DNA of 64,000 nucleotides from assembly GCF_964355755.1 (NCBI RefSeq), contig NC_092672.1, positions 15,370,501-15,434,500 on the forward strand, in the 5' to 3' direction. Under the pieces are notes generated by a model. The model ran no database searches, was not told the origin of the DNA, and worked only from the letters and a program-made list of their open reading frames with translations. Positions 9,478-63,113 of the stretch are shown here, piece after piece. The translations under genes and the position numbers were made by a program. Positions within the stretch are counted from its first letter, which is position 1. Each line of letters opens with the position of its first letter. The DNA comes from Antedon mediterranea (lineage: Eukaryota > Echinodermata > Crinoidea > Comatulida > Antedonidae).

Positions 9478-10818
9478 TTAAGCTGAGAGTCTTTGTTTCA
9501 TACGTTCTTCAATCTCTGCATATGTATATGATGATTCGGAGCTGTCACCAGATACTTGTACACCTACTGAGCGCTTCCATGGTGTAGTTTCACCTGCATA
9601 AGGAGAATGAAGACTGTCTTTTGGTTCAAAGTAAACATCTGGCTGTGGAATACGTTGCCCTGTGTAATCTATAGCATGACTGCGTGTGTAAACTTGAAAG
9701 TAGCAAAGTAAAATTGCCATTATTAGTGATAGAAGAAGTAAACTTGCACCAGCAACTGATAGAATTGTTGCAGCCGGAAGCTCTGTGTACTCTGTGTTTA
9801 TGCTTTCACGATCTGGTGGTGGGTCAGGAAAAAGGTTTGGCACAATTACATCTTCACCCTCAAATGTAATGATTGTTTTGTCACTTCCAAACCCAATTTC
9901 ATTATAAACATTACACTGGATAATCATTCCTCCATAGTCCCTGTACACATTTAGCAATCTTAGAACTTGACCCTTGTTTTCAATTTCATATTTTGTAATT
10001 GGTGGAATTATAGTCCAGTTGTATGAAACAGTGGCAGGACTAGCCACACTAAAACAAACAAAGACTACCTCCTCATTAATTTTGTATTTGGGAGAGCTAA
10101 GATTGACAATAGGCTTGTAATCAACTTGAATTGGACCAAGTGAACAGTTTCTTTGGAAATTTAAATTGTCTGGTATCTTCAGTTGACACCAATAAATGGC
10201 ACCATTGTCATTTTTTGTCAGGTTCTTACTAAAGATAATTGTTATCTCATCAGTTGGTTTGCCAGTTAATGTTGTCAGGAGTGTATTTTCTCGATACCAA
10301 GTAAGACGTGGATTTGGTTGTGATCTTTCACTTTTGCATGCTATATTCAGGTTATCTCCTTCTTTGAACTTTTTCTTGGATTTTAAATAGATACATCTTG
10401 GGTAATGTTCTGCTGGTACCTCAGAAACTTTAATTGTAACACGTTCTGATATTATAATTTCCTTCTGGTCATTTCTAGTCACAGCACATTCGTAATTATT
10501 TGAACCATCTCTTCTTTGAATATTTTTAACAATAAGGTTTCTTGTTTGATGGCGGTCATCACTCGTGGCTGTTACATCATATTTATTTTTGTTATCCTCT
10601 TTTATAACATGCGATCCATTGGTGATAAGAATGCCATTAACTTTCCAAGTAACATTTTGATTGTTCGCTACATCAGACACAATACAAACAAGAATTGTTG
10701 ATGAACCTTCTTCACCAGCCACTACTGAAGGTGGTTTTGTTTGGAAAGTTACTTCTAGACTATGTTTAATTTTAAAACAAAACATTACACACATGAACAA
10801 AGTCTGGAGTGCATCCAT
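9478..10818 (-). CDS. Three-Ig-domain type I membrane receptor, intronless, phosphotyrosine-motif tail (paralog 1)
   Basis: The protein has 446 residues. Residues 1-20 form a hydrophobic signal-like leader. Ig domain 1 (about 22-131) has Cys45-Trp58-Cys111. Domain 2 (about 134-235) has Cys161-Trp174-Cys211 plus an extra pair, Cys142 and Cys225. Domain 3 (about 237-320) has Cys255-Trp268-Cys302. N-glycosylation sequons occur at 55, 67, 199, 224 and 267. The transmembrane helix is about 349-373, and the tail of about 70 residues contains IPQPDVYFEP (Tyr396, a YxxP site) and YTYAEIEE (Tyr433). The ATG has A at -3 and G at +4. The paralog at 55967-57340 shares the architecture and tail motifs. 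Ig arrangement and tail suggest a cell-surface recognition or adhesion receptor that signals through SH2 proteins; this is inference, and the ligand is unknown. Ig genes with three domains normally have introns between domains; here the whole frame is one exon. The Tyr433 site has Tyr at -2, so it is only ITIM-like. Confidence 0.88.
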   Translation of the reverse strand: MDALQTLFMCVMFCFKIKHSLEVTFQTKPPSVVAGEEGSSTILVCIVSDVANNQNVTWKVNGILITNGSHVIKEDNKNKYDVTATSDDRHQTRNLIVKNIQRRDGSNNYECAVTRNDQKEIIISERVTIKVSEVPAEHYPRCIYLKSKKKFKEGDNLNIACKSERSQPNPRLTWYRENTLLTTLTGKPTDEITIIFSKNLTKNDNGAIYWCQLKIPDNLNFQRNCSLGPIQVDYKPIVNLSSPKYKINEEVVFVCFSVASPATVSYNWTIIPPITKYEIENKGQVLRLLNVYRDYGGMIIQCNVYNEIGFGSDKTIITFEGEDVIVPNLFPDPPPDRESINTEYTELPAATILSVAGASLLLLSLIMAILLCYFQVYTRSHAIDYTGQRIPQPDVYFEPKDSLHSPYAGETTPWKRSVGVQVSGDSSESSYTYAEIEERMKQRLSA

Positions 10819-25837: not shown

Positions 25838-26560
25838 TTAAAATGCTGTCAAACTCTAATTTATCAAGTAATTTTTAAACATGTTCATGTATAAACAAGC
25901 ACATCTAAATAATTTGCTTTTAACTGCTCTAAACAAGCATAATTATTTGTTTAAACAGGATTTAAACTGAACTAAATAGTATCTTTTATTATCAATGATA
26001 TACAACCACCATTGCCTCACTATACACGTCTTTATGTATTTTCTGTAATTAGCAAACTCTTGAGCTATCCAGCATAGTAGATTTGATCGATTCAAGTTGT
26101 TTTGAGATGTTATAAAGTTTGAAATAACATTTTGTATAATTGTAACTAAATTTAAGTTTGCATGGCCCAAAAAGGGAAGTTTTCACTGTCTAATGGTTAT
26201 CGATGCTGAAACATATCCAAACACAATAAGTGGCTCATTATGCGTGAGTGAGGTTTTCAACTATTAGTGGAATGACTGATGAGTGTGATTATTGTGTTTT
26301 ATGGACGGTTTCAAGGACTATCCTACCATTCACTGGCAAATTGATTAACACTTTGTAACTGGAGCTGTGACTACCTTGCAAGAAGACTAGGCCAGAATTT
26401 TTAATTGAAAAGTGCCTTGGTATTTACAAATAGAAAAAAAGGGTCTACAGTAAAAATAAATGGTCTGTTTTTATTTATTTATTTTTTTTTATTTATTCAA
26501 ATTCTCACAAAAATGTACATACAAAGCAAGAAAGAGACATAACATATAAAAAGAACAGAG
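25838..26560. other. Intergenic; repeat shared with 39200-39415
   Basis: The segment 25970-26160 (GTATCTTTTATTATCAATGAT..TTGATTCAAGTTGTTTTG..AATTGTAACTAAATTTA) matches 39205-39415. A T-rich tract lies at 26465-26500. No gene is seen. Confidence 0.5.
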
Positions 26561-27788: not shown

Positions 27789-28140
27789 ATTGCACAGTGA
27801 TAAATGAAAAAGTTAATAACATTATAATAAATATTTAAATATAGTAAATAGTAATTTATAAATTTGTATAATTTAAGATAAAACTAAGTTGGTCGACATT
27901 TACAGCAGCGACAACAGGACACCCATGTGCACATATTGCCAGTTTCATACGTATTGGTAACTTTTTTTAAGGCCATTCTTGTTCTTCATTGAAAGTCCGA
28001 GCCTGGAATTTATTTTTTTATTATGCCATGGAAATATTTAAAAGTTATGAATGAATATTTTGTGTTTTCATGTTGTTTTTTTTTTTGCATTTAAACATTT
28101 ATTTACTTTCAATGTCATGGTAACAAAATAAAAGGTGATA
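27789..28140. other. Intergenic, no gene seen
   Basis: AT-rich flank between the minisatellite and the next MITE. Nothing is recognised apart from poly-T runs. Confidence 0.5.
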
Positions 28141-29796: not shown

Positions 29797-32057
29797 TTAG
29801 ATTAAGTTACTACAATCATGAATTTGATTAAGGTGATTACTAAGCTTTCTCTTAAAATAGGTCCAAGAGATACAGACAAATGTATCTTTGACATCAAAAG
29901 GCAAGGAATTCCAGATCCTCACAAATCTAGCAGTAATGCTAAATTTACCCGAATCCGTACTTGTTCTTAAAGAAATAAAGAACATTTTTTCAACACGGCG
30001 AGAGCTCTGTTGAATATTGTCAAGTATAATTGAACTATTGGAACACATGGAAAATAATAAACGACAAACATATAAAGTAGTAAAATAATCCCGCTTTGCA
30101 GCAGTAGTACACATTTTAAGGACGATGAGCCTGTTCTCATACGAGTCTTCTTGCCTTTTCTGATTTAAAAGGAAATGGGTGGCACGACGTTGGATTAATT
30201 CAATTTGTTTTATATTTTCTTTACGGTATGGATGCCAGATGTTACAGAAATATTGAATATGTGGCAAAATAAGAGATGAATACAATTTTAAAAGAACTTT
30301 AGATGAACAGTTATTAGCTACAGAATGAATAAACCCAATCATTTTATATGATTTAGAGGTCACTTTCTCGACGTGATTGCTCCATGACAAGTTGTGGGAA
30401 ATCATGACACCAAGGATATTCATATGTTTGACATTATTAAGATGTTGACCATTCAATACATATTAAGGGACCTTTGGTTTATGTTGTTGAGTAATTGACA
30501 AAACCTGACATTTATTAAGTGACAATAAGTTTAGTTCTGACCATCTCTGGATACAGTAGTAGTCTTGTAAAATTTGTATATCATTTTCAAAGTCGATGCA
30601 TCTTGAAATAAAGGTGTCATCTGCATATTGAAATGGCCTTGTTGTCAATTTAGATGTAAGTAAGTAAGATAAAACATTAGTCCAAGAAGAGCAGTTACCT
30701 TGATAGACAACACGTTGTTGCCTACCACAAACAAAAGATTCCAACCAACTGAGAAGCTTGCCACCGATACTATACGTTCGCTCCAGCTTGGTTGTAAGGA
30801 TGTTATGGGATATCGAATCAAATGCACGGGAATAATCAAAAGAGACCACATTGATACGCACAGCATCTCTATCAAGACCAAGGGTCCACGAAGTAGTTGA
30901 TTCGTCAAGTAGCGTATCGCAAGATTTCCTTTATGTAAACCTGTGTTGCCAGTAGTACATAAGGCCGAATTCATTAAGGTGTTCAGTTAGATCCTCATCA
31001 CAAGATTTTCAAGGGTTTTACAAAACAGTGACGTCAATGTGACCGGTCTGTAATTTTTCAATTGCGACTTATCGTCCTTTTTATAAATAGGAACAATGTT
31101 GGTCTGCTTCCATGCTATTGGAAGCTCGCCAGACTATAATTATAAAAATCAGCAAGTACAGGACAGATCGTATACGCACACAGTCGCAGCATCATACATG
31201 TTACACCGTCGGGACCTGCGGCCTTTTGAGTCGTTTTCATAATTATTTTCAGGATCCGATCAGGATGAATATACATGTTGGTCAATTTTGGAACCTTGCA
31301 AAAAGGTCATCTGTATCAGCAGTGAAATATGATGAGAATAGATTATTAAATGATTGAGCAATTTTAGATGGGTCGTTGCACAGTGATATATTTACATTAA
31401 AACAGCCAGTATCTACTGTTTTTTTCTTTGATTTAATATGGGACGTTGTCATGTTCGCTGATCAGATTGTTCAAAACACAACTATACGAGCGTTGAATTG
31501 AATATTTCACATGGTTTCTAACTTTCTTAAATTTATTCCAATCATCAACGTTGCCTGATTGTTTGAACCGCTTAAACAATCTGCGTTTAATGTGAATGAG
31601 TTTCTTATCCTCAATGGATATCCACGGTTTTGACCACTTGCGTTTTGTTTTATGCGGTATACAATCATTAATACACGTCATGAACGTTGTTAAAAACTTA
31701 TTCCACGTGTCATTAACGGTACCTGAAAAATAGATTCCATTGATATTTATTTATGGTATAAACTTTAGGAGGTAACGCTGCAACTCTAGGTTTTTTGCAG
31801 TGGTCAGAGGTTGAAAATGGCTCAGAAACCCGAATATCACATAATCGATCTGTTTTTTTGGAAAAAATGAAGTCGATAGTAGATCTACAATCCTTAGATA
31901 TTCTAGTAGATTCATGCACATGCATTGGAACCCCAAGCGACATGGTCCAATTATTTAACATCCGATAATTTCTAGAGTTCACATTATCATTGGACTTCAT
32001 TTCACTCTTCTTTTGTTTCCGAAATAGGCGTAACTGTTTTTGGTTTGTTCTTTTCAT
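29797..32057 (-). pseudogene. CR1/Jockey-group LINE, 5'-truncated and disrupted (LINE-1)
   Basis: Read on the minus strand from 32057 down, the pieces are as follows. There is the end of an AP endonuclease domain (STRISKDCRSTIDFIFS, TSDHC). Then comes a basic linker (KRKWSKPWIS, RRLFKRFKQSG). The reverse transcriptase starts with AAGPDGV and KNYRPVTLTSLFCKTLENL, followed by palm motif A (FDYSRAFDSISH), QRVVY and catalytic YADD. The thumb has LGVMISHNLSW, LPHIQYFCNIWHPY and ATHFLLN. Frames change at several points. The GxPQGS block (motif B) normally between QRVVY..W and YADD is missing, so the enzyme is dead. Such elements copy their RNA by target-primed reverse transcription. The order and motifs fit the CR1/L2/Jockey group; the exact clade is not decided. 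Confidence 0.8.
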
Positions 32058-35947: not shown

Positions 35948-38312
35948 CAGTGGCATATCCAGGATTTTGAAGTTTGCCGACAAAATTAGTGTCATTAGGC
36001 CTACCTGTACATCTGATCAATATATGTTCTAGGATTGCATAGTCATATTGTCTTATATGGGATAACGATGCAAAATTAAAACCAAATTAAACATTATCTG
36101 TTAGTATGTTGTATTAATATTACAATATAGAAAGATTTACGAAAATCTGTATTGTAGTTTTCGAAATATAGGGTCAAAAACATCGACGAAAATGATCATT
36201 TTTAGCCACGAAAGAAGTAAAACAAATTGCGGCTTTAACTACGCCATTTTTGGTTAAAATAATTACATATTACATTTTTTAGTAATTTGTTTTATATACC
36301 ACCATTGGAAATATCAATAAAACATGTTATTAAATGCTTGTTGTTTACTTACGAAATTCGGACAAATTCATTGCTCTAACTTTGTGTAGTAACGACCATA
36401 GAGACCATATGACTTCATGGTACACGCGCGAGAGAAAACATTCCGCTGCGAGTGATTCGCATCCACCAATCAAATCAGCCAGAATCCAAAATCATTCAAC
36501 CGTGAGCAATGCCAATCACGAGAAAGCTCAGCTTTAATTGGCTTACGATGACATCATATCACAAAATGGTGGTTTTGTAGTTGAGCCTCACAGAATATTC
36601 TGTTCCAAAAATGTGTGCTTTTTCTTTAAAAAATTTTAATAATAAAGGCCTCATATCGAGGGGAAAAAACCGAGTTTTTGGCACTTATAATAAATATATC
36701 TTAGAGAAAAAAGGAGTAAAGCGCAGGATTGGTCATTTTGGAGTTTTCAGAGCTTATACTTGTGTTGTAGCATACAGGTGCTATTTGTTTACTATTATTT
36801 GCTATTATTGCTGTATCAAGTATAGCAATTACACAGCTATTTGTTTGCTATTAATTGCTATTATTGCTGTATCAGGTATAGCAATTACACAGCTATTTGT
36901 TTGCTATTAATTGCTATTACTGCTGTATCAAGTATAGCAATTACACAGGTATTTGTTTGCTATTAATTGCTATTACTGCTGTATCAGGTATAGCAATTAC
37001 ACAGCTATTTGTTTGCTATTAATTGCTATTACTGCTGTATCAGGTATAGCAATTACACAGCTATTTGTTTGCTATTAATTGCTATTACTGCTGTATCAGG
37101 TATAGCAATTACACAGCTATTTGTTTGCTATTAATTGCTATTACTGCTGTATCAGGTATAGCAATTACACAGCTATTTGTTTGCTATTAATTGCTATTAC
37201 TGCTGTATCAGGTATAGCAATTACACAGCTATTTGTTTGCTATTAATTGCTATTACTGCTGTATCAGGTATAGCAATTACACAGCTATTTGTTTGCTATT
37301 AATTGCTATTACTGCTGTATCAGGTATAGCAATTACACAGGTATTTGTTTGCTATTAATTGCTATTACTGCTGTATCAGGTATAGCAATTACACAGGTAT
37401 TTGTTTGCTATTAATTGCTATTACTGCTGTATCAGGTATAGCAATTACACAGCTATTTGTTTGCTATTAATTGCTATTACTGCTGTATCAGGTATAGCAA
37501 TTACACAGCTATTTGTTTGCTATTAATTGCTATTACTGCTGTATCAGGTATAGCAATTACACAGCTATTTGTTTGCTATTAATTGCTATTACTGCTGTAT
37601 CAGGTATAGCAATTACACAGGTATTTGTTTGCTATTAATTGCTATTACTGCTGTATCAGGTATAGCAATTACACAGGTATTTGTTTGCTATTAATTGCTA
37701 TTACTGCTGTATCAGGTATAGCAATTACACAGCTATTTGTTTGCTATTAATTGCTATTACTGCTGTATCAGGTATAGCAATTACACAGGTATTTGTTTGC
37801 TATTAATTGCTATTACTGCTGTATCAAGTATAGCATTTACACACCTTTTTGTTTGCTATTTATTGCTATGACCAATCTTGCTCCTTAGTGGAAAAAAGCA
37901 CATGGCATGTGGAACTATATTTAAATCTTAGCATAGGAAGACATACAAATCCCAGGTCATGAGAGGCTCAACTGCAAAAACAAGGTTGATCACCGGACTG
38001 TTCAAAGACTTATGAGTAAACAATCTAGCGTGTACGGCCGTACGTGCTAGATGATAAGATATTTTAACCACATTTTTTACGTGTATTAGATGTAATGAAA
38101 ATAACAAATAGTTGATCTGAAGGGAATGATATGATATGTAAATAAACAAACACTCAAAAGAATTAAGTTTACAGTTCAATTATTGTCAGAATAATAGTTT
38201 ATTCTTATTTGCCTTACTTTATTTTTTTTTCCGGCACCTTTGTTTGCCGACGGACACCAAATCAGGCAGGGCCTGGCCCCCCCCCCCCGGCCCCCCACTG
38301 GATACGCCACTG
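35948..38312. mobile_element. hAT-type element, 2365 bp, with internal minisatellite
   Basis: The left end CAGTGGCATATCCAGG and right-end complement CAGTGGCGTATCCAGTGGGG are inverted repeats. The flanks are a perfect 8-bp duplication TGTATGTG (35940-35947 and 38313-38320), the hallmark of hAT insertions. Almost half of the element is the 56-bp array at 36775-37870. No DDE transposase or dimerisation domain is visible, so it is non-autonomous. The identical duplication indicates a fairly recent insertion. Confidence 0.85.
36775..37870 (+). repeat. 56-bp minisatellite, ~19.5 copies
   Basis: The unit is GCAATTACACAG[C/G]TATTTG followed by TTTGCTATTAATTGCTATTAC and TGCTGTATCAGGTATA. Internal GCTATT words repeat within it. 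The copies are very homogeneous except for the C/G site after ACACAG and a few edge variants. It lies wholly inside the hAT element. Confidence 0.93.
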
Positions 38313-44271: not shown

Positions 44272-45120
44272 TGTAAGATAAGATAAGATAAATCTTTATT
44301 GTCATGAATACAACAAGGCGAACATGAAATTGGTTTTCCTTGATGCTTAAAGCCCCATTCCCTACGTTTTTTAGATCTAATTTAAGATCACAAACTATAT
44401 TTAATGTAAAAATAATACTATATGGTCCTATTGCGATAACTTTTTCCGTCTTTAAATGGTTAAAAATGTGAAAAATAAATCGATTTAAATAATTATAGCG
44501 GCCCGCTATAAATCCCAAAATGCATTGCGCGCGGATTGATAGTTTTGTTTTTGACCTGTAATTCGCCCACTTTTCGATCGATCGTGAAGCCAAAACAAAT
44601 GGAAGACTCCTAACTTTTCAGCGAAAATACCGGGTTTTCCCCAATTTGTATCAACGGAGTCTGGCAAAAATAGAAAGACAATTAATGCAGCAACTATACA
44701 ACGTCAGGCTAGGTATATAGCTAGCGTACGATGTTCGTACGTTATCGATGTTTACCAGCTAGGCCTACAAAACTAAGCCTAGCTAGGCTAGGCCTAAGAC
44801 CGTCCACGAGAGGTCGATCGCCGCGAGCTACTTAGGTAGTGCATTGTTTCTCACTTTTTATCATAATTTACCATAAAACGTACATTTAAGACAAGGAATG
44901 ACATGGTTTAATGTTTTTAAAGTGATATATATGTATTATTTTCCAAAAAACGTCCAAAATTGCAGGGAAGGGGTCTTTAAAAACACATACAATATATAAA
45001 ACATTACAAAATATCAATACAATACATTAAAACTGTATTAGTAAACAAGTTATATTTACAGAAGGAATAAAAAAACAAACTATCTTTGAAATGTTGAGTT
45101 GGAATAGAGTTGTGGACAAA
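44272..45120 (-). mobile_element. LINE-like 3' tail with (TTATC)n end, interrupted by MITE C
   Basis: ATAAGATAAGATAAGATAAATC at 44277 reads on the minus strand as a TTATC repeat tail, and the adjoining CTTTATTGTCATGAATACAAC is typical of antisense LINE/SINE 3' ends. The TTAA MITE at 44351-44976 splits this tail. Reverse transcriptase remains of the same orientation lie at 45851-46085. Confidence 0.45.
44351..44976 (-). mobile_element. TTAA-MITE family, copy C (full length, 626 bp)
   Basis: The flanks are TTAA at 44347-44350 and 44977-44980. The ends AGCCCCATTCCCTACG and complement AGACCCCTTCCCTGC match copy E. It has exactly the length of copy E but the opposite orientation. Family landmarks CGATCGATCG, AGGCCTAGC and GTACGATGTTCGTACG are present. 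The open frame at 44156-44593 crosses its boundary and is not a gene. Confidence 0.85.
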
Positions 45121-45850
45121 AAATGATTTCCTACATCGAGTGGTATTGCACATTAAAGGACGGTTTAACAACATATGTATCATTCAATTGGTGTGAGTTA
45201 TCTTCCATTATTTACCATATTGTTCCTAATAAACGCCCCTGGGGCGTTGCATTTTTTAAAAAGTGGGGGGGGGGGGGGCGTTTGTTAGGGGTGAAATGTA
45301 AAAATCATAAATAGAGCCTAGGCCTATATGAGGCCTGCCTAGGCCTACCCTAAACAAGTTGCTTCAGACGGTCAATCAATGTTTTTTTGGGTGTGCAACA
45401 AATAAGTTCACAGGGTACCTCCAAACCCTGCGTTCAGCTGTAATTTTTACTTTTATTCGCCTTTATGTTTAAAAAAAAAATTAAAAATCTTGGATTGCTC
45501 TTGTGGCAAATGGCCGACGATGCAGCGTTCTTCGTTGTCCTTCACAACAGAAACAGCGTGTTTATCGTTGTTTATTGACATCCTCCCTCAACTTGATGAA
45601 CAGTTCTAACAACTCGAAAGGTCTTCATGAACCAGACGCCTTGTATCAATTCCGTGTTGTGTGAATAAACATGCGATTGTCTGATCCCTGTTGGGATCGT
45701 GCCTGTAAACTGCGTCAATAACATTGACATTCCTTCCTATTATTTTACTACTACTTTTTATCATTAGCACTCAGACTATTGTACCAAACAACACAGTTGA
45801 AAGTTACAACACTAAGAATAACAATCTGGTGAAACAAAAAAAGTATGTCA
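45121..45850. other. Intergenic; short inverted repeat with poly-G
   Basis: CCTAATAAACGCCCC and GGGGCGTTTGTTAGG at 45225-45288 form an inverted repeat around a poly-G run, probably a small MITE remnant. AGGCCTA words are dense at 45316-45350. No gene is seen. Confidence 0.4.
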
Positions 45851-46085
45851 TTATTTATTTTCAGCTTTCTGAGAAGGTACAGCCGTTGATTAGATTTTTT
45901 AACAATATTTACAGTATTTGAATTCCAGTTTAATTCACAATCTACCGTTGTTCCTAAATATTTATGTTCTTTTTTAGTTTCTATCTTTTAGAACATTATC
46001 AATAACACTTTTCTTCTTTCTGAAATCAAAAATTAATTCTTTGGTCTTATCCACATTTAATATAAGAAAATTTTGTCAACATTCG
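45851..46085 (-). pseudogene. LINE reverse-transcriptase thumb fragment (LINE-5)
   Basis: Minus-strand frames read LNVDKTKELIFDFRKKK and then KYLGTTVDCELNW followed by KKSNQRLYLLRKLK. This is the segment after the catalytic YADD of CR1/L2-like reverse transcriptases (NxxKTKEL..DFR, YLG..D..L.W). A frameshift and stop codons separate the parts. Confidence 0.6.
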
Positions 46086-46734
46086 ACATTCACGTGAAGT
46101 TGTGCGCCTCCTATTTTTGAATGACGTCAGAGTTGCGCATCATGACTTGCGCGCGATTTTATGAATTTTAATGATTGATCATAGATTAAAAACAAAATGT
46201 TTATATCAAGAGTCAACTTTCTATGGATTAAAAATGGCATGTTTCCCACAAAGTTACGTACACAAAATTAATTTCTAATCAATTTTCTATATATTTCAGG
46301 ACATTTTTAGCATTTCAAAATTTGCCATGCGCACATCTCGTACATAGCATTGTATTTGCAATAGATTTTTGTTCTTCATACCTTCTGTGATAGATTTCAT
46401 TAATTTTTATTTGCAATTTTAATTGCATACTACTGATGCATGTGCACGATAAACGTTGAAAACTGTGTGCTTAAAAATTGCAAATTCAATGCAAATTTAT
46501 GAAAAAATCTGCCTATTTTAAATCTACTATAGCGCTTCAGGAAGACCATTGACCCACCATTTTGTCAACTTATTTTGAAATCTAATGAGCTCATCGAATT
46601 TAATAGAATGCATCTAGCTTATTCGTATACCATTTTCCCACAGTTTTTAATATTGTCTAGGTTAATCCCATGGGGTTTTTCTGACAAAAATAGCTAATTT
46701 ATAAAGACAGTCCAGACTTGCAATATTTGTTATT
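46086..46734. other. Intergenic; dispersed repeats
   Basis: 46125-46260 is an inverted copy of 20650-20815, and 46330-46570 is homologous to 43490-43760. No gene is seen. Confidence 0.5.
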
Positions 46735-47075
46735 CTGTAAAAAGAATGCATATAATAAATTTAACTTTAAAAACATTAAACTAGGTCATTATTTGTCTTA
46801 AATGTGCGTTCTACGGTTAATTATGATAAAATGAGTAGCTCGCATAAAAAGTTATCCCGTAGACGTTTCTAGGCCTAGCTTAGTTAGGCTTAGTTTAGGC
46901 CTAGCTGGTAAAGAGCGGTAACATACAAACATTGTACGTTAGCTCTAGGTCTAGCCTGTCGTTGTCGCTTTGCTAAATTAATTGTCTTTCCTTTTTTTGG
47001 CAGAATCTGTTAATAGAAATTAGGGAAGACCTGGTATTTTAGCTGAAAATTGACTGTTCTTTTATTTTTTTTACC
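46735..47075 (+). mobile_element. TTAA-MITE family, copy D (diverged, right-truncated)
   Basis: AAAACATTAAACTAGGTCATT, the AGGCCTAGC block, GTCTAGCCTGTCGTTGT and GACCTGGTATTTTAGCTG follow the family order. The right half beyond about 47075 is missing. It shares GACCTGGT with the 58-bp unit of copy A. Confidence 0.65.
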
Positions 47076-47140
47076 CCGAGTAATAAAACGAGATATACTC
47101 TAATCATATTACGTATACAGTATATTTAATAAAGTTTAAG

Positions 47141-47145
47141 AAAAA
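47141..47145 (-). terminator. Polymerase III T-run terminator of tRNA-Val
   Basis: AAAAA on the plus strand gives TTTTT on the minus strand, 2 nt after the tRNA 3' end. Confidence 0.6.
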
Positions 47146-47147
47146 TA

Positions 47148-47219
47148 GGTTTCGCCAGGGCTCGAACCGGGGACCTTCTGCGTGTTAAGCAGACATGATA
47201 AACCACTACACTACGAAAC
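47148..47219 (-). tRNA. tRNA-Val(AAC), possibly decaying
   Basis: The minus strand reads GTTTCGTAGTGTAGTGGTTT..CTGCTTAACACGCAG..GGTCCCCGGTTCGAGCC. The loop TTAACAC gives anticodon AAC (Val). The acceptor GTTTCGT/GCGAAAC pairs with one G-T. The D-arm GTAGTGTAGTGGTT and AGGTCCCCGGTTCGA T-arm are those of animal tRNA-Val. Oddities: an extra T in the D loop, a C-T mismatch in the T stem (CCCGG against CCTGG) and discriminator C instead of A. It may be a functional divergent copy or an early pseudogene. Confidence 0.8.
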
Positions 47220-47873
47220 CTCTTACACCAAAAATGTGGGTTACACAAAGTTTTTTAAATCCATTTAAATAAATATGGTAATAAGCACAAAGCAAAATAA
47301 ACATGTGTAAAAGTGATAATTACCGATTACACAAAATGAGTATTTAAAAAAATAATAAAAATAAGATATACTGTATATCATATTGCGTATGTTCAAACTG
47401 TCACATAATTGGTGAAACAAATGATCAATATATACGTAATCACCCCTGTTATGAGGAGTCAATTCTCAGTACTGTATCTATTTCCAACATAGAAATATTT
47501 GGTATACAACATCACATGTGTTTCACATGTATCTAGAGTAACCTAACCCTTAACTTAACCTTACAGGCACCGCATGTGATACTGTATTACCAAATATTCC
47601 TATGATATTTCAGAAATAGATAGTATGTGGAGATATCGGCTTTAATAATTCTATTTTCGTCGCTCCTTTGATCGTATCAGGCCACTGTAGTATTTCTTTC
47701 ATTCTGTCCATTATTACCAGATGGATTATATGCAGTAGTGATGCATTTAATTATTCCGAATTAATCACAGCTTCTAAAACAAACTACCTTGATTACTTCT
47801 TCCCTAACCACCTGGTCTAGGGCATTTATATACACAGTACATAGGCCAGCAGCCCGAAGTACATATATATTAA
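47220..47873. other. Intergenic, no gene seen
   Basis: AT-rich sequence between tRNA-Val and MITE copy E. Small minus-strand frames here have no features. Confidence 0.5.
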
Positions 47874-48499
47874 AGACCCCTTCCCTGCAAATTTGGACGT
47901 TTTTTGGAAAATAAAACATATATATCACTTTAAAAACATTAAACCATGTCATTCCTTGTCTTAAATATACGTTTTATGGTAAATTATGATAAAAAGTGAG
48001 AAACAATGCACTACCTAAGTAGCTTGCGGCCATCGACCTCTTGTGGACGGTCTTAGGCCTAGCCTAGCTAGGCTTAGTTTTGTAGGCCTAGCTGGTAAAC
48101 ATCGGTAACGTACGAACATCGTACGCTAGCTATATACCTAGCCTGACGTTGTATAGTTGCTGCATTAATTGTCTTTCTATTTTTGCCAGACTCTGTTGAT
48201 ACAAATTGGGGAAAACCCGGTATTTTCGCTGAAAAGTTAGGAGTTTTCCATTTGTTTTGGCCTCACGATCGATCGAAAAGTGGGCGAATTACAGGTGAAA
48301 AACAAAAATATCAATCCGCGCGCAATGCATTTTGGGATTTATAGCGGGCCGCTATAATTATTAGAATCGACTTATTTTTCACATTTTTAACCGTTTAAAG
48401 ACGAAAAAAGTTATCGCAATAGGACCATATAATATTATTTTTACATTAAATATAGTTTGTGATCTTAAATTAGATCTAAAAAACGTAGGGAAGGGGGCT
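47874..48499 (+). mobile_element. TTAA-MITE family, copy E (full length, 626 bp)
   Basis: It is flanked by TTAA at 47870-47873 and 48500-48503. The left end AGACCCCTTCCCTGC and right-end complement AGCCCCCTTCCCTACG are inverted repeats. It is nearly identical to copy C over the whole length. TTAA targets are used by piggyBac and Kolobok transposases. The autonomous partner is not in this window. Confidence 0.85.
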
Positions 48500-49100
48500 T
48501 TAAATACAAAAATGATCCATGAATCCATAGTGCACAAACCTACAACAGGTTATGATGAACTGTTGCTTGAAACATGACAGTGTAAAAACATATTGTTACT
48601 AAACTTTGCAACAAAGCAAAAAAAGATTACTAAAGAACTAACCAATGATCGTAAACTAATGTTACGTGGTCTTAAAGATCTCTTAAATACAAAGGTTTTA
48701 CCTTCATCAATCAAAGTCAAGGATAGCATATTAACTAACAGGAAATAAGCAATGCTTTTAGGGTATGTTCAGACCTACGGAGTTATGCTTTCGTATCACA
48801 ACCAAGGTCATATTTTTATATGTGTCGTAAGAGCAAAGTGTTCAGATTCATTTCAATAAAGTTGCGTTACAAACGGATATAATGTCACTCAATGGCGATT
48901 AACCAAACTAACGCATGCGCGCGGTCGCTATGTGTGACCTTTTTGTTATTGCATGCTTTTTCCGCTACACGCTGTAATTTTTTCAACAATGTTGCCATTA
49001 AATTTATTTGCTATTTTACTTCAATTAATTGATGATGATAGTAATAACCAATTTACAGCTGATATGGACAAAGAATGTGTAATATGTGTGTATGTTTTTG

Positions 49101-52282: not shown

Positions 52283-55200
52283 GTAAATCTAGCATTTTGA
52301 GTGAAACAAATTGCAAACAGAGATTTTTTTTTGTTAAATGGTTACATATGATAAGGTGATTATTTTTTTAGCATCACACCTCTGACACTCATCCCGAAGG
52401 TATGCAAATTAGCTTAAATATGCAAATTAGGGTGAAATTACAGAGTTACCATATCTTAAAAACTACTAATCGTAGAGAGTTCATTTTTGCACAGTCTGGT
52501 TCAGAATATATATATTTATATTTGCTCTAATGAGACATTTTACATAAAAATGTCCGGAAGTACCAAATTTTGACCCTTGACCCCATTTCTCAATATTTAC
52601 ATAAATATGTGATTAAAATGTCTGTAGAGACTTTATTTTGGACTCAATGACTTGGATATTGCTTTTCAATACCTACCATAGAACTGTATTATAATTCCTA
52701 AAATCACAACTTCGTCACGCACCTCGAAAGTATGCAAATTAGTAGTACAAGTAATATTAAATATGCAAATTAGGGAGTGAAATTACAGCATTGCCATATC
52801 TCGAAAACCGCTAATGCTAGAGTGTTGATTTTTTCACTAAAATATTTAAAATGTATATATTTATATTTGCTGTAATGAGACATTTTACAAAAAAATGCCC
52901 GGAACTATGACATTTGACCCTCAACCCCATTTCTCAATATTGCATATATAATGAAAACCAAAATGTCTGTAGAGACTTTGTTTTGCCCTCAAATGACTCG
53001 GATACAGGTTTCCAATAGCCAACATAGGAATGTTTAGTAAATCTCAAAATCACACCTGTATCACTCACCTTCAAAGTATGCAAATTATTAGTACATGAAA
53101 TATGCAAATTAGTGGGTGAAATTACAGGTTCCTATATGTATCGAAAACCGCTAAGGTAGAGAGTTGATTTTTTCAAAAACTTGTTCAGAATGTACATATT
53201 TATATTTGCTCTAATGAAACATTTTACGAAAAAAGGACCGGAAATACAACAATTGACCCTTGACCCTATTTATCAATGTTTGCATACATAATGCGACTAA
53301 AATGTCTGTAGATAATTTTTTTGGACTCAAATGACTCGGATACAGTTTTCCTATCGTCAGCATATGACCTCTTTGTAATTCCCAAAATCACATCTTTGTC
53401 ACATACCTTGAAAGTACCGGTATGCAAATTATTAGTACAAGTTACATGAAATATGCAAATTAGGGGTGAAATTACAGTCTTCCCATATCTCGAAAACCAT
53501 TAATGCTAGAGAGTTGATTTGAATTCAGAGTTGATTCAGAATGTACTTATTTATATTCGCTTTAATGAAACATTTTACGCAAAAATTGTCTTGATTGAAT
53601 TATGACATTTGACCCTTGACCCTATTTCTCAATATTTTCATATAATTCAACTAAAATATCTGTACAGACTGTTTTGGCCTCAAATGACTCAGATACAGGT
53701 TTTCTATAGCCAGCATAGAACTGTTAGTAATTCTCAAAATCACACCTTTGTTACTTCCCTAGAAAATATGCAAATTAATAGTACGGTACAAGAGGTGAAA
53801 GTTGCCATATCTCTATCGGTCATTAGCGTTTTTCGAGATACATAAGGCTGTAATTTGCATATTTCATATAACTTGTACTAATAATTTGCATACTTTCGAG
53901 TTGCTTGACTTTTGGAATTACTAAACGATCCTATACTGGCTATATAAAACCTGTATCCAAGTCATTTGAGGCCAAAACAAAGTCTGTACATACATTTTAG
54001 TTGCATTATATGCAAATATTGAGAAATAGGTTCGAGGGTCAAATGTCATACTTTTGATAATTTTTTTTTTTATAATGACCCAGATACAGGTTTTCTATAG
54101 CCAGTATAGAACTGTTTAGTAATTCTCAAAATCACACCTCTGTTACTTCGCTTGAAAGTATGCAAATCAGTAGTACAAGAAAGTTGCCATATCTCTCTCT
54201 CGGTCATTAGCGTTTTCGAGATACATAAGGCAATTCACTGTAATTTTCATATTTCATATAGCTTGTACTACTAATTTGCATACTTTCAAGGTGCTTGACT
54301 TATACTGGCTATATAAAACCTGTATCCGAGTCATTTGAGGCCAAAACAAAGTCTGTACATACATTTTAGTTGCATTATATGCAAATATTGAGAAATAATA
54401 ATAATAATATCCTGGATTTATATAGCGCCTAATGTTGTGAAACCTCTAAGCGCTGTACATAAACTAATACGAAAAAAGGGAATTCCAACCATGCCAAAAC
54501 GAAGGTGTGATTTTGGGAATTACAAAGCGGTCCTATGCTGACTATAGGAAACATGTATATGAGTTATTTGAGTCCAAAACAAAGTCTCTACAGAAATTTT
54601 AGTCGCATTATGTATGCAAACATTGATAAATGGGATCGAGGGTCAATTGTTGTATTTCCGGTCATTTTTTCATAAAATGTTTCATTAGAATAAATATGAA
54701 TATGTACATTCTGAACAAGTTATTGAAAAAATCAACTCTCTAACCTTAGTGGTTTTCGATATATAGGAACCATTAATTTCACCCTCTAATTTGCATATTT
54801 CATGTAACTTGTACTAATAATTTGCATACTTTGGAGGTGAGTGATACAGGTGTGATTTTGAGATCTACTAAACAGTCCTATGTTGGCTATTAGAAACCTG
54901 TATCGGAGTCATTTGAGGGCAAAACAAAGTCTCTACAGACATTTTAGTTTCATTTATATATGCAATATTGAGAAATGGGGTCGAGGGTCAAATGTTGTAC
55001 TTCCTGTCATTTTTTCGTAAAATGTTTCATTAGAGTAAATATAAATATATACATTTTGAATAGATCAGTGAAAAAAATCAACTCTCTCGGACTAGTAGTT
55101 TTTGAGATATGGTAACCCTGTAATTTCACCCTAATTTGCATATTTAAGCTAATTTGCATATCATCGGGATGAGTGACAGAGGTGTGATGCTCAAATTTTG

Positions 55201-55288
55201 ATCTCCTCATCATATATGACCATTTAAAAAAGAAAAATCTCTGTTTGCAATTTGTTTCACTTTGGGCTGTTTTTTTTGCTAGATTGAC
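52283..55288. mobile_element. Foldback-type element with ~345-bp subrepeats, 3.0 kb
   Basis: The outer ends GTAAATCTAGCA and GTCAATCTAGCA are inverted, followed by GTGAAACAAATTGCAAACAGAG in both arms. The left arm has units starting near 52401, 52731, 53076, 53421 and 53768, each with two ATGCAAAT words, GTGAAATTACAG, CATATCTCGAAAACC, TTTGACCCTTGACCC and AAAATGTCTGTAGAGAC. The right arm carries the same units inverted (53850-55190), partly reshuffled with a short forward piece at 54055-54180. Long arms made of tandem subrepeats are characteristic of foldback elements. No transposase is seen; small open frames are artefacts. Confidence 0.8.
54396..54475 (+). repeat. SINE/LINE tail-like insertion in the right arm
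   Basis: ATAATAATAATATCCTGG followed by TTTATATAGCGCC and AAGCGCTGTACAT interrupts a right-arm unit. A trinucleotide run next to GATTTATATAGCGC is typical of retroposon 3' tails in marine animals. Confidence 0.5.
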
Positions 55289-55966: not shown

Positions 55967-57340
55967 CTACTTGGAATCCTCTTTTAAATTAGTACTTTTG
56001 AGAGTGCGATAGCTGTTGATTAACTTCTTGCCCTCTTCAATTTCAGCATATGTTATCGATTCTAGTTCCAAATCATTGGGCACCTGTGTAGCAATAGATC
56101 GTTTCCATTTTCCTGTTTGATACGTACTACCAGAAGTTGTATCAATACTATCTTTAGGCACATAATACACATCAGGCTGTGGTATTTGATTACTAGTGTA
56201 AAGGCTAGCCTGTCGCCTTGTGTACAATATGATACTACACAATAAAAATGCCATTATTGATGCTAGAAAAAGCAAACAGCCACCAACAACTGAAAGCATC
56301 GCTGCTGTGGAATTGCTAGTTTTTTTGTCAAGATTAAAACTGTTTGATCCAGTTGGCTGATTCAGATTATTAGTAATCAATTCGTGTCCACTTACTTGTA
56401 CCATAAATTTTCCAATTCCTGTCCCTTGTGAATTTTTTGCATGACATTCAATATTTGTACCGTTATCATTTTTTGTAAGTTTGATTAATCTTAGGACTTG
56501 CATATTATTTTCATAACCATATTTTTCAGGTGGCAGGGTATCTGGTAAGATCCAAGTATAGTCTTTCACCTCAGGACTTGCATCTGAGTAGCATACATAA
56601 ACACCATCGCTTCCTTCATATATAACTTCCTGGCCTTGAATGTCAATTGATGGTTGGTAAAGAACATGAATTGGTCCAACAGTACAATTTTCATTTATTT
56701 CCACATTAGCATCTGTTGTTAGAGAACAAACAAAAAATGCTTCCTTGTGTTGCTTATTTATTGTTACTATTGTTTCTGCCTTCACTATGTCATTGTTTTG
56801 TTCATTGCGTGTTTTAAGAGCTTGCCCGTTATAGTACCATTTTAATTTCACAGTTGGATAACCCTTTTCTGAAGTACACATCAAATGAGCCTTGGTGTTT
56901 TCTTCAAATTCCTTTTCACTCTGTTTGCAACTTGGATTATATTCAGGACTGGGTATTTCAGTTACCAGTAGAAGTGCTGCATCTGAAGTTGCTCTTTGAA
57001 CATTTCCATCATAAACAGAACAATGGTACTTTGTACCATTATCCCCCTTTTTGACAGCTTCTATAACAAGGTTATAATGACCAAGTTCATCATCTATATC
57101 AATTTTAATTGATGATGGCAATCCTTGGACAACATTGGTTCCTTCAGTAATGATTCTATCGTTACGGAACCATTTTACCTTTTGATTGTCTGTTAGACCC
57201 TTAACAACACACATGAATTGTGCTCTTGAACCTTTGAGACATGTGGTGTCCTGAGGTCTTACATCAATTTCCACAGAACTACAAAAGGTTATCATTTCAA
57301 ATAATATTAATGTTTGAAGAATATTTATATTTTTTATCAT
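55967..57340 (-). CDS. Three-Ig-domain type I membrane receptor, intronless, ITIM tail (paralog 2)
   Basis: The protein has 457 residues. The leader is 1-20. Ig domain 1 (about 22-127) has Cys44-Trp57-Cys107 with an additional Cys34. Domain 2 (about 130-230) has Cys155-Trp168-Cys205 and the extra pair Cys138/Cys219, as in the paralog. Domain 3 (about 231-317) has Cys250-Trp263-Cys299. The transmembrane helix is about 346-371. The tail has IPQPDVYYVP (Tyr392, YxxP) and ESITYAEIEE. ITYAEI (Tyr431) is a full ITIM (I-x-Y-x-x-I), a motif that recruits SHP-type phosphatases in vertebrate inhibitory receptors. Conserved tail blocks with paralog 1 are IPQPDVY, PKDS, WKRS, QV and TYAEIEE; the ectodomains are far more divergent. 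The likely role is inhibitory or modulatory signalling at the cell surface (inference). The whole frame is one exon, unusual for such a receptor. The nectin/CADM or Kirre-type adhesion families are alternatives on domain count. Confidence 0.88.
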   Translation of the reverse strand: MIKNINILQTLILFEMITFCSSVEIDVRPQDTTCLKGSRAQFMCVVKGLTDNQKVKWFRNDRIITEGTNVVQGLPSSIKIDIDDELGHYNLVIEAVKKGDNGTKYHCSVYDGNVQRATSDAALLLVTEIPSPEYNPSCKQSEKEFEENTKAHLMCTSEKGYPTVKLKWYYNGQALKTRNEQNNDIVKAETIVTINKQHKEAFFVCSLTTDANVEINENCTVGPIHVLYQPSIDIQGQEVIYEGSDGVYVCYSDASPEVKDYTWILPDTLPPEKYGYENNMQVLRLIKLTKNDNGTNIECHAKNSQGTGIGKFMVQVSGHELITNNLNQPTGSNSFNLDKKTSNSTAAMLSVVGGCLLFLASIMAFLLCSIILYTRRQASLYTSNQIPQPDVYYVPKDSIDTTSGSTYQTGKWKRSIATQVPNDLELESITYAEIEEGKKLINSYRTLKSTNLKEDSK

Positions 57341-58439: not shown

Positions 58440-61316
58440 CCAATACACATATAGCTTTTCCTTTTTACTCGAGGTAACAAAGGCGTGAATCTCAGTTGAT
58501 CTTGAATCCAGGTACTTCCGAATGCTTCCAATTTTACGAATAGCGTGAAGCCCAGCTTTGCAGATGTTATGTACCTGATTGGACATACTAAGCGTTGAAT
58601 CCATAACAACTCCAAGGTTTCTACAGGATGACAAAGGTTGAATGAAAGAATTACCAAACAGATACAGTCCAATAGGCAGGCTTAAAACGAGAAGAAAAAT
58701 GAATATAAAGTTCTGTTTTAGCATCATTCATGACCAGGTTTTTAGATTGACACCATGCTCAGACTTTGGCAATACAGGATTCAAGTTTACTGACAGCAGA
58801 ATCACGCTGATTAGGGTTAAAAGTGACATAAAGCTGAGTGTCATCAGCATACGCCAATCACTTCACATTGTGAGATTCAATGAGGTCAAGTAGTGGGGTG
58901 GTAAATAAAATAAACAGAAGAGGACCAACCACAGACCCTTGTGGAACACCAACTGTAAGCAGAGTCGGGTTCGGCAAAACATCCTTGATGACAATTGACT
59001 GGGACCTATCATTTAGACATGATGCAAACCAATTATGACCGATTCCAGAGATACCGTAACGTGATGATATACGATTTAATAACTGCTTATGGTTGATGGT
59101 GTCAAAAGCAGTACTGACGTCCAAAAGGACCATAAGAACCTCATTATGGTTGTCAAGTGCAATGCTAATACCATTATGCATAAGAAGAAGTGCAGATTCT
59201 GCACTATGGTTTGGACAATAGGCGGATTGTCTAGTGGCAAATAAGCCATTTCTATTCAGATATGATTGCAGCTGACTGGACACAACCCTTTCAATAATTT
59301 TTCCAAGACATGGAAGATTGGAAATGGGTCTGTAACTTGCAAATTCCTCAGTATCCAGAGATGGCTTCTTTAACAATGGTGTTATGCTGGCATGTTTGAG
59401 TGAAGATGGAAAGATACCTGAGCTCAGTGAGGTGTTGACAACTTTGGTAAAGAAGGGAAGAAGAGTAAGGAAGACAAGTCTTAAATAATTTAAGAGGAAG
59501 CGGATCCAGGGAGCAAGAAGTAATGGAGGCTGGCCTAATGACATTAAGTAAATCATCAGCAGAGACGGGGTCAAAGGTATTGAAATTACTTTTACATGAA
59601 TGAGGGGAGGTTGATGAAATATTGATGCAATATTTCTCAATCTTGTTCTTAAAAGTCAGAGAATAGATTTGGAAGAGTTTTAGCATCATCATGAGCGGGA
59701 AGAGGACGGCAGTAGATGTTAACTTGTCAACAATCCGGAATAACTTGCGTTGATCACATCCTAATACCTCATCTTTGTGATACTCCGTCTTGGCCTTGAA
59801 AAAATGTTCATTGTAGTTAGTGCACTGATTATAGTACAGTTGTTTGCCTACCATAAGACAAGATATCAGCCACTTGCGCGCCAGACGTCGACGCTCCTGC
59901 TTCATTGAATGATGTTCACCTGTATACCAGGGTGCATGGCATGAGGGCGATGCACAGGTGGAGAATGAGAATCCAATATTTTTCGACACATTATATCCCT
60001 TCACCATAGAATCGATGTCAGAAGCCAGGGAACATTGGGAGAGAGAATCACGGAATTTGACGATGTCTATGTTTTTGACATTTCGTGAAACTACTTGTGT
60101 TCTTCTGGGCCCAGGACGATTTACGTCAACCTGACACTTAATGGCATGGTGGTCCAAAAGGCATACATGTTGGATGGATATTTTGCTAAGCAGGTCAGAT
60201 TCTTTGCGGGAGATAAGTAAATCTAATGTATGGTTGGCAATGTGAGTTGGGTCATGGATGTGCTGATATAATCAAATGTCTCAAGAGTGTTGAGAAACAA
60301 TGCAGCATCCCTGTTGTTAGAATTATCAATATGAAAGTTAAAATCGCCTAAAATAACTAACTTGGAGGAGTTCACACTAATAATGATTCTAGTAAAGAAG
60401 AAAATTCATTAATGAACATAGATGAGGTTAATTTGTTTTGGGCATTTGGAGGAACCCTATAGACAACCACAAGCTGAAAAGAGGAAGAAAAAGAAGCCAA
60501 AGTAATCTTTGAACATTCCATAGATTTCGCAACAATGTATCTGAATACCATCACAATGACTGCAATGCCACCACCCCAGCCATGAGTCCGAGGGGTATAA
60601 CAACATTATAGTTAGGCAGTGTTGTTTTTATCAGCAATGGTATGATCATCTCTACCGTCAGCCATGTCTCTACAACAGCCAGTATATCAAGATGATTATC
60701 AATGATAAAATCACAGAACGCAGTTGATTTGTTCTTGGCCCCAATAGATCTGGCATTCCAAGTGGTTAAGTTAATCTTAGTGGAGTTGTGGCTTGGTGGT
60801 TTTGATGCTTGGCTACCACTCCAAGGGTCCTGGGTTCAAGTCCCGTCACATGTCAGGATTTTTTCTAAGGACCAAATTACTCCACTCCCAAAGACTTGTA
60901 ATAAGACTTTGTTTATGTAGAGCATCTTGTGTATATGTTGTCTTGTGTAGGTAGTAGGGTAAGTTGGTAAAGTTGACACCACGACCTACTTTAGGTAAAG
61001 ATTGCTGGGTGGAAAGAACAGGTATAGGTTTCCGAATAGTAACTCTTTTACCAGCCCTACAACCACGGTATGATCTGAGAATACTGCATTCATTCAAGAC
61101 CTGATATGTAGAGGGAGAAATCCATTGTCTACGACAGTTCCAAAGGTGTAGTAGCGTACCCCTACTATACACATGCAAGTCAAAGGTAGATACAGGGCTA
61201 GGCCCAGTATAGAGAGACAGACAGACACCAAAGGAACTAATGGGGCTAGCTAGGCCAGCATAGCACAGGGCTAGACCTAATGTTCCAGCAGAAGTTTCCT
61301 TGACACCATCAACCAT
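58440..61316 (-). pseudogene. L2/CR1-group LINE, disrupted (LINE-2)
   Basis: Read from 61316 down on the minus strand, the pieces are as follows. The N-terminal region has YRGCRAGKRV. The endonuclease has TWNARSIGAKNKS, LDILAVVETWLT and VVVYRVPPNAQ. The linker has PWYTGEHHSMKQERRRLARKW. The reverse transcriptase has LKHASITPLLKKPSLD, YRPISNLPCLGKIIERVV, LDVSTAFDTINH, GVPQGSVVGPLLF and, after a frameshift, AYADDTQLY near 58845. The thumb has LGVVMDSTLSM. All catalytic motifs are recognisable, but several frameshifts separate them and the C-terminal end is lost near 58440. A SINE at 60779-60925 interrupts the N-terminal part in the opposite orientation. Confidence 0.82.
60779..60925 (+). mobile_element. 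tRNA-derived SINE nested in LINE-2
   Basis: GTTGTGGCTTGGTGGTTTTGA..CTTGGCTACCACTCC..GGGTCCTGGGTTCAAGTCCC is a tRNA-like head with B box GGGTTCAAGTCCC and a degenerate A box. It is followed by a CATGTCAGGATTTTTTC body and an AAAGACTTGTAATAAGAC tail. It separates the YRGCRAGK part of the LINE from its endonuclease start (TWNARSIG). No clear target duplication was found. Confidence 0.65.
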
Positions 61317-61337: not shown

Positions 61338-63113
61338 ATGGAACCTACTAGATACAGAGAAGGCGAAACACCCAATGTTTTAGATCTGGTTTTTACTGAC
61401 AAAGAGAATACTATAAATGGCGTTATGCGGTCTCCACCACTGGCTAAAAGCGACCATATGATGTTACAATTTTCATTGGATCTTGTAAGGGATGACAGAA
61501 TTGAACCAAATATTCGAAGTTACAGGCATGGTAATTATGATTTGTTGCGTGAAAAAATTGGTTTGGTAGATTGGGATGTGGTTTTCAATGATAAATCAGG
61601 TATTCAATCATGGGACGAGTTCGAGCATATACTTGTGAAGAATATTGATGAGTGTATCCCAATGAGGAAGGTTTGTCATGAAAGAAAACCCCTTTGGATG
61701 AAAAAAAAAATTTAAAAACAGATTGCAAAAAAAAATAAATGTTGGAAACAGTATGTAAAGGCCAAGAGAAAACAAAAAGTATGTGTTTCAGCAAAATTGT
61801 CGAAGTTTGTCCAAGTAAGAAATCAAACAGTAGATCTGATTTGATGTAATAAATCTGACTTCGAAAATAAAATAGCAAATGAGATCAAATCTAATGAAAA
61901 GTCTTTTTGGAGGTATCTCAGTTCTCAGATCAACATAAAGTCTGGTATACCCAACTTAACCGATAGCAATGGAAGGCATGTGTCTGATGACAAAGATAAG
62001 GCTGATTTGCTAAACACGTTTTTTAGTAGTGTATTTGTTGATGAAAGTTTTTCTAATGTACCGGCTGTTGATGACTTTTCAGAGGATTTTTTTAAGGATA
62101 GTGTACCACATCATAGACTCCTTCTGAAAATGAGTGCATTGGGTATTAGAGGTCAACTTCTAAACTGGTTTCAACAATTTCTTAACGATAGACAACAACG
62201 GGTTAGTGTCAACGGATGTGTTTCAGATTGGGCTGATGTTCGTAGTGGTATCCCGCAAGGAAGAGTTGTTGGACCTGTTCTTTTCATTATGTTTATCAAT
62301 GATTTACCTTCTGTTATTTCTTCTTCTGTACGCATGTTTGCAGATGATATTGTATAGAGTAGTTAACACTGTGAATGATGCTCAAGTTTTACAAGAAGAT
62401 TTAGAGAGAGCATGTGACTGGTCTGACAAATGGCAATTACCTTTTAACAAGGGTAAGTGCAAAGTAATGCACTTTGGGAAGAAAAACAACAAGCATTTGT
62501 ATGCCATGCGTGGTTTCTTACTGAATGAAGTTGATCATGAAAAAGACCTCGGTGTTACTATTGACTCTAAACTTGTTATTAATGTACATGTGGCAGATGC
62601 AGCAATGAGAGCAAATCGGAAATTGGCCATGGTATATCGAGCTTTCAAGTTTTTAAATATGAATGGTTTTCTTCGTTTATATAAAGCTATTATTCGTCCG
62701 AACCTGGAATACTGCAACGTTGTTTTTAACTCACTTCATTGTAAGGAGGAAGACCTACTGAAAAAAGTCCAAGAACGTGCCACCAAGCTTATTTTTTCCA
62801 TTCGTCATTTACCTTCAGAAAGGCTGAAAATTCTCAACCTACCTACTCTCGCATACAGAAGGCAAAGAGCTCATTTGATACAGATTTTTTTTTTTACATG
62901 GAGTGAATAGTATTTCAGCTTGATGAAGATGTCAGAACACGTGGTCATTCTTTTAATTTAAAATTTAAGTTCTCACGCACAAATTGGATGAGGGACTCGT
63001 TTAGTCGAAAAGCTATTATACTATGGAATTTGTTATTGGAGGTAGTATCTGCAAGATCAACCAATCAATTTAAGTCAGGTCTTGAATGGGCATGGTCCAT
63101 TGCCACCCTCTAA
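61338..63113 (+). pseudogene. CR1/Jockey-group LINE with internal deletion (LINE-3)
   Basis: The first part shows the endonuclease end (NVLDLVFTD, LAKSDHMML) and linker (RKPLWMKKK). The second part has DKADLLNTFFSSVF, then jumps at about 62095 to SVPHHRLLLKM, so the reverse-transcriptase start and motif A are deleted. It continues QRVSVNG, GIPQGRVVGPVLF and catalytic FADD. After a frameshift the thumb has DKWQLPFNKGKCKVMHFG, LGVTIDSKL and YCNVVFN..ATKLIF. A last frame ends FSRKAIILWN..QFKSGLEW and a TAA at 63111-63113. It is opposite in orientation to LINE-2 and begins within 25 bp of it. Confidence 0.82.

Follow-up and report, generated by a model that had tools for sequence, protein, structure and literature searches.

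Results

Gene A and its surroundings

The window, a stretch of 64,000 nucleotides of the crinoid Antedon mediterranea, contains two members of one receptor family. Gene A (55967..57340, minus strand) is a single uninterrupted ORF of 457 aa from ATG to stop, and its paralog, gene B (9478..10818, minus strand), encodes 446 aa that are 33% identical to gene A over its length. An NCBIfam scan of both genes was without match. Pfam and an AlphaFold2 model agree on three Ig domains and one transmembrane (TM) helix in gene A. Ig_3 was matched at three stretches, with I-set and C2-set_2 also above cut-off, and the strands of the model fit three Ig domains, with helices at residues 2-18 and 344-383; the model was built on an alignment of four sequences and its pLDDT is below 50 in the tail.

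A predicted signal peptide occupies approximately residues 1-22 (57275..57340, minus strand), as judged by a hydrophobic N-terminus and the first model helix. The Ig domains delimited by Pfam follow on the same strand at approximately residues 24-125 (56966..57271; C44 and C107), 130-228 (56657..56953, matched by C2-set_2; C155 and C205, plus C138 and C219) and 229-318 (56387..56656; C250 and C299), and all of these cysteines are invariant in an alignment of four sequences. The TM helix, approximately residues 347-373 (56222..56302, minus strand), lies within the second model helix and is identical at 25 of 25 positions in the crinoid Anneissia. An earlier note, made from the letters of this DNA, had placed such an ORF with three Ig domains, a helix, a YxxP site and the motif ITYAEI at 55967-57340, and ORF, Pfam matches and model bear this out exactly.

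Repeats are found elsewhere in the window. RVT_1 scored above cut-off at 58858-59640 and 61980-62357 and below cut-off at 30463-30861. The larger pieces at 58858-60157 (minus strand), 61980-62910 (plus strand) and 29797-30861 (minus strand) resemble broken non-LTR retrotransposons and are without Pfam match outside the RVT_1 stretches. Tandem repeats lie at 36670-37977, 26533-27815 and 3801-4253, their units being about 56, 61 and 58 bases long, respectively, and nested direct repeats about 345 bases apart, together with inverted repeats, occur within 52300-55261 just downstream of gene A. An inverted repeat at 44347-48503 has 634-base arms that are 97% complementary and spaced by 2889 bases; pieces akin to it also occur near 25.3-25.8 kb.

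A multigene family with intronless coding frames

Searching the animal's own genome (354 Mb in 18 contigs) gave 103 matches with gene A (93 of 329 candidates scored) and 106 with member L034 (90 of 312 candidates scored). Merging by position yields no fewer than 96 loci, of which contig C3 carries 94 and contig C10 two. On contig C3, 52 loci lie within 18.70-18.91 Mb and 22 within 11.73-11.90 Mb, and in 200 kb of the former cluster 49 of the 51 ORFs of at least 250 aa belong to the family. Internal stops were seen in eight of the 103 gene A matches; in seven the stop is the regular end of a complete ORF, and one (18877474) is truncated.

For comparison of members, 83 ORFs of at least 300 aa were taken, of which one was non-family and two were cut by the end of a stretch; setting aside one truncated ORF (315 aa) from the remaining 80 leaves 79 complete members, namely arrays C (10), D (15), E (9), F (12) and G (10) and 23 dispersed genes. 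This set lacks 17 of the 96 loci and, through its length cut, is biased towards intact genes. The coding frame runs uninterrupted from Met through the TM to the tail in all 79, so that the family is intronless in its coding frame, while the UTRs may have introns. A hydrophobic segment close to the N-terminus was recognised in 78 of the 79 by a simple threshold. Seven further members scanned with Pfam gave Ig domains, the only other entry being a match to an unrelated viral family that fell below threshold. No charged residue occurs in the TM core of any of the 79 members, a single flag having fallen on the truncated ORF that was set aside; there is hence no sign of adaptor partners, and activation through partners of charged TM residues was rejected.

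Five dispersed members (L005, L029, L030, L039 and L043) have PDZ-ligand-like C-termini of the form S/T-x-V/I. At C3:18773773 (L016/L017) and C3:18830887 (L022) the N-terminal part is far more unlike the array neighbours than the rest of the gene, a hint of possible domain swaps among array genes.

Among approximately 5.8 billion database sequences, the only relatives of gene A found besides itself were two proteins of the feather star Anneissia japonica, LOC117115264 (P0003, 66% identical) and LOC117115262 (P0004, 31% identical), each recorded on a contig of length 587308. Searches with the P0003 tail and with an alignment of four members returned no further relatives. The protein search depends on shared five-residue words: the P0003-tail query missed P0004, gene B was listed by none of the three queries, and the four-member alignment was scored against the 7994 candidates with the most words in common. 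Since known relatives were missed in this way, the apparent absence of the family from other animals is tentative. In a tree of the ectodomains of the 79 members and the two Anneissia proteins, gene A pairs with P0003 and gene B with P0004, each with support of 100/100, and with a warning from the program that the bootstrap was unsettled and that long branches meet. Identity between A and P0003 and between B and P0004 is 182/310 and 178/309 in the ectodomains (approximately 58%), 25/25 and 25/25 in the TM, and 72/82 (88%) and 71/73 (97%) in the tails. Gene A is a real, conserved gene, and a dispersed member of a large crinoid family of three-Ig receptors.

Variable ectodomains and homogenised tails

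Within arrays, amino acid identity is 45-67% in the first Ig third and 93-98% in the TM and tail, and pooled pS is 0.49-0.59 and 0.08-0.21, respectively. The change-over from divergent to homogenised sequence lies near the border of Ig1 and Ig2 in array C, near Ig3 in E and just before the TM in D and F, and is gradual in G. Between arrays, the TM and tail differ at pS 0.51-0.68. Beyond the stop codon, identity of the 3′ flanks is mostly 0.4-0.6 (arrays C, D, E and F, read without a shuffled baseline), but the windows nearest the stop are higher in E (0.61-0.69) and, over few pairs, in F (0.99 and 0.75); upstream, identity rises to as much as 0.75 in C and 0.67 in E. The divergence of tails between arrays and the low identity of the 3′ flanks argue against both codon constraint and recent duplication of whole genes. 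Codon or RNA constraint is an unlikely cause of the tail identity, because synonymous sites have strongly diverged between the tails of different arrays.

In D, F and E, subclades whose ectodomains lie pS 0.47-0.68 apart have tails that differ at pS 0.06-0.15. When four-fold sites were permuted, the observed contrast was reached in 0 of 20000 permutations for D, E and F, in 216 for C and in 93 for G. Tail dN/dS is 0.10-0.15. The simplest account of these patterns would be repeated gene conversion of the tail within each array under purifying selection. Against this account, the tail has the higher GC3 in 10/10 genes of C, 9/15 of D, 2/9 of E, 0/12 of F, 9/10 of G and 12/23 of the dispersed members; tail GC3 is thus not generally raised in D, E and F, where the customary signature of biased gene conversion is missing, and GC-biased conversion is unsupported by these counts for the three arrays. 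The ectodomain has dN/dS of 0.28-0.69 by thirds. Most segments of the closest pairs are below 1 and few above, the largest finite value of 2.17 resting on 7 versus 1 changes, and gene-wide positive selection on the ectodomain was not found in the pairwise counts.

The tyrosine code of the tails

The tail of gene A, approximately 85 residues, carries two tyrosine sites. The membrane-proximal block QPDVYYVP (56156..56179, minus strand), within IPQPDVYYVP, contains Y392-x-x-P395, and the distal site ITYAEI (56039..56056, minus strand), within ESITYAEIEE, contains I429-x-Y431-x-x-I434 and matches the strict ITIM pattern [IVLS]xYxx[IVL]. Between them lies KWKRSIATQVP (residues 411-421; 56078..56110, minus strand), in which no known motif was recognised and which recurs as a loose pattern in 78 of the 79 members. 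The family tails are marked by three blocks, QPxVYxxP/T, W-x-R-S-x-x-x-Q-V and the distal tyrosine; in a MAFFT alignment of the complete members the residue at Y392 is Tyr in 79/79 and that at Y431 in 78/79. The tail of gene B reads ...IPQPDVYFEPKDS...WKRSVGVQV...YTYAEIEE, and its distal site has the core YxxI with Tyr at -2, hence is not a strict ITIM.

Shuffling the gene A tail 10000 times produces a strict ITIM in 2426 cases, so the motif match alone proves little. What places the site beyond chance is the retention of both tyrosines across the family and in Anneissia, where the Y392 and Y431 sites are unchanged in the ortholog P0003.

Across the family, the strict pattern is present in 12 of 79 members and absent from 67, a count that excludes the first ten residues after the TM window and becomes 32/80 when matches at the membrane boundary are included. 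The carriers are 11 of the 23 dispersed members and one of the 56 array genes. In dispersed members the distal site is often S-[VI]-Y-A-E-[IV] or near to it, and shuffled tails give an expectation of 4.7 strict ITIMs (11 observed) and of 13.4 members with the core YxxI/L/V (20 observed). The single strict ITIM of the array genes is below the approximately 11 expected from shuffling. It is found in array E as SMYLEI, the distal site being otherwise AMYLEI in C and E; it is GYTYIED or close in D, SYTYIDT or close in F, and ATYNTQV or VTYNTQV in G. The GYTYI of array D, standing behind acidic residues, bears only a loose resemblance to a hemITAM. The distal consensus Y-x-E-I/V would presumably suit Src-type SH2 domains, and the YxxP block is one that we take to suit SH2 domains of the Crk type.

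Gene A carries a further pattern match, YAEI-x9-YRTL (Y431 to L447; 56000..56050, minus strand), in which Y431 and Y444 fit a wide ITAM, Yxx[IL]-x(6-12)-Yxx[IL]. Among the 79 members this is unique to gene A, is shared with the ortholog P0003, and arises 285 times among 10000 shuffled gene A tails; a pattern scan of the tails found the classic spacing of 6-8 in 0/79 members. The pair could also act as an ITAM, which makes the sign of signalling the weakest step in the reading of gene A.

A candidate phosphatase partner

On the plus strand of C3:14097618-14104506, exon-wise family searches located three SH2 pieces, making up two domains, followed by two phosphatase pieces. For the first piece of each SH2 domain the top-scoring PDB entry is SHP-2 (PTPN11), at E 1.1e-37 and 1.4e-30, and a phosphatase piece at this locus matches PTPRS, SHP-1 and SHP-2 about equally. 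On these exon matches, a SHP-2-type gene exists in the genome. Many clustered PTP exon matches were also observed at C5:7.65-8.08 Mb and C6:26.29-26.39 Mb, suggestive of tandem expansions of PTP genes.

Discussion

The earlier note had described a three-Ig receptor with a canonical ITIM and a textbook inhibitory layout in a genome that looked non-vertebrate, possibly from a lineage-specific family and with a presumed phosphatase partner. The relatives found are indeed crinoid, and the family, of at least 96 loci, has so far been seen in crinoids only by a word-limited search. The gene itself stands, but it is one dispersed member of a large family, in which tails have been homogenised separately in each array. 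The ITIM is canonical in gene A and conserved in the one ortholog available, but not in the family at large, where array members mostly carry other motifs. The architecture is as described, but inhibition is at most plausible, given that Y431/Y444 also fits a wide ITAM, and a SHP-type phosphatase is available, its SH2-SH2-PTP exon pieces standing in the proper order.

The reading that we favour, at a probability of roughly 0.46, is that of a crinoid family of recognition receptors with SH2-docking tails, for which inhibition, ligand and tissue are inferred. Divergent outer parts joined to near-constant signalling tails suggest a recognition system employing a tyrosine switch of the type used in vertebrate immunity. 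An immune role, or one in recognition of self and non-self, would be the likeliest, and inhibition by gene A is plausible from its motifs.

The family could instead descend from an intronless Kirrel-like retrogene of echinoderms and serve cell adhesion or fusion, skeletal or neural, its arrays being adhesion codes of the protocadherin kind. The kirrelL gene is intronless in all echinoderms that its authors examined, the crinoid Anneissia gene being among those studied, and KirrelL is an Ig transmembrane protein required for fusion of skeletogenic cells (PMC8903837, in extract); regional homogenisation, moreover, is known from fugu protocadherins (PMC1852091, in extract). The best three-domain structural matches of gene A include the adhesion proteins Necl-4, nectins, SYG and DIP. 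Kirrels end in THV, and the dispersed member L005 ends in STHV. On the other hand, a lone fusogen would have no need of some hundred copies, the family tails centre on tyrosine sites, and KirrelL is said to be well conserved across the phylum (PMC8903837, in extract), yet gene A and the four-member profile matched crinoid proteins only, a weak point in so far as the search was word-limited. We regard an adhesion family of this kind as less likely, but as the main rival. Far less credible is a fortuitous ITIM in an otherwise ordinary Ig adhesion protein: the ease with which shuffled tails produce the pattern speaks for it, but 78 of 79 relatives have the tyrosine at the aligned position and a second crinoid retains the motif in full, which makes coincidence highly improbable.

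Recognition receptors might also use these tyrosines to bind SH2 proteins with an activating or scaffolding role, of the Src family, the Crk type or, in gene A, the Syk type, and not for inhibition. The wide ITAM shared by gene A and its Anneissia ortholog and infrequent in shuffled tails, the prevalence of the core YxxI/L/V over the strict ITIM in dispersed members, and the location of the most conserved tyrosine in the YxxP block are consistent with such an output. Against it, the ITAM pattern is confined to one of 79 members and lies outside the classic spacing, the strict ITIM of gene A is unchanged in Anneissia, and a gene of the SHP-2 type is present; an activating role for the family seems rather improbable.

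Under the favoured reading of recognition receptors, the outer Ig domains would recognise a range of surface ligands, self or foreign, and binding would lead a Src-type kinase to phosphorylate the conserved tail tyrosines. In members with an ITIM, the distal phosphotyrosine might then recruit SHP-2 and dampen signalling, and the array tails with AMYLEI, GYTYI, YTYID or YNTQ may feed other outputs. Gene conversion and purifying selection would maintain one tail per array; each array would thus wire different binders to a common output. One may speculate that about a hundred germline receptors form a variable/constant-like system of diverse Ig ectodomains and array-wise near-identical tails with differing tyrosine codes and outputs, an extension that we consider doubtful but tenable. 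The homogenisation of tails provides a testable rule, namely that selection keeps one output per array as the binding ends diverge.

Comparison with known systems

The structure search reveals a common Ig arrangement only, since Fabs score close to adhesion proteins. Nectins, Necls and PVR are at 18% identity and match in fold only, and the CADM4 match (E 8.9e-6) ranks below titin chains; nectins and Necls bear PDZ-binding motifs, whereas gene A ends in EDSK and its family forms large arrays. The ITIM receptors of vertebrates (KIR, LILRB and Siglec) have the same layout and tail motif as gene A. CD22 is among the structural matches of gene A, but the searches made gave no sequence kinship with KIR, LILRB or Siglec, and the likeness would reflect either convergence or distant Ig kinship.

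Within the echinoderms, KirrelL resembles the family in being an intronless Ig transmembrane gene, crinoids included (PMC8903837, in extract); the coding frame of gene A is likewise uninterrupted. It is described there as a single gene with skeletogenic expression, in contrast to the approximately one hundred loci of the crinoid family, for which it may be the stem. In the open-licence literature on crinoids and the immunoglobulin superfamily this paper on KirrelL was the only one found, which is weak as evidence of absence.

In mode of evolution, the nearest system is that of the clustered protocadherins of fugu, tandem arrays whose 5′ parts diverge and whose 3′ regions are more than 99% alike among paralogs, the likeness arising within each subcluster by regional gene conversion (PMC1852091, in extract). 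Membership fails, since nine members scanned with Pfam gave Ig matches and no cadherin; further, the converted regions of the fugu genes have raised GC3 (PMC1852091, in extract), whereas the GC rise is not general in the crinoid family.

Nearest in plan are the FcoR genes of Botryllus, invertebrate multigene Ig receptors with 53 loci so far and tails bearing an ITIM, a hemITAM or the core YxxI/L/V (PMC12065747, in extract). The FcoR ectodomain consists of V-Ig, sushi and two C2-Ig domains and its genes use alternative splicing, whereas crinoid family genes have an uninterrupted coding frame and no sushi domain was found by Pfam in genes A and B and seven array or dispersed members, so that membership fails on domains. 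The Alr genes of Hydractinia, which the same source cites, are likewise invertebrate recognition genes with ITIM/ITAM motifs, in this case cnidarian (PMC12065747, in extract). Recognition systems with ITIM-type receptors are on record from vertebrates as well as from a tunicate and a cnidarian (PMC12065747, in extract). If true, a variable/constant-like crinoid repertoire would be an independently evolved counterpart of KIR/LILR or of fester/FcoR for immunity or allorecognition. Coming from the other deuterostome branch, an echinoderm case would inform whether tyrosine-switch repertoires arise repeatedly on the same signalling core.
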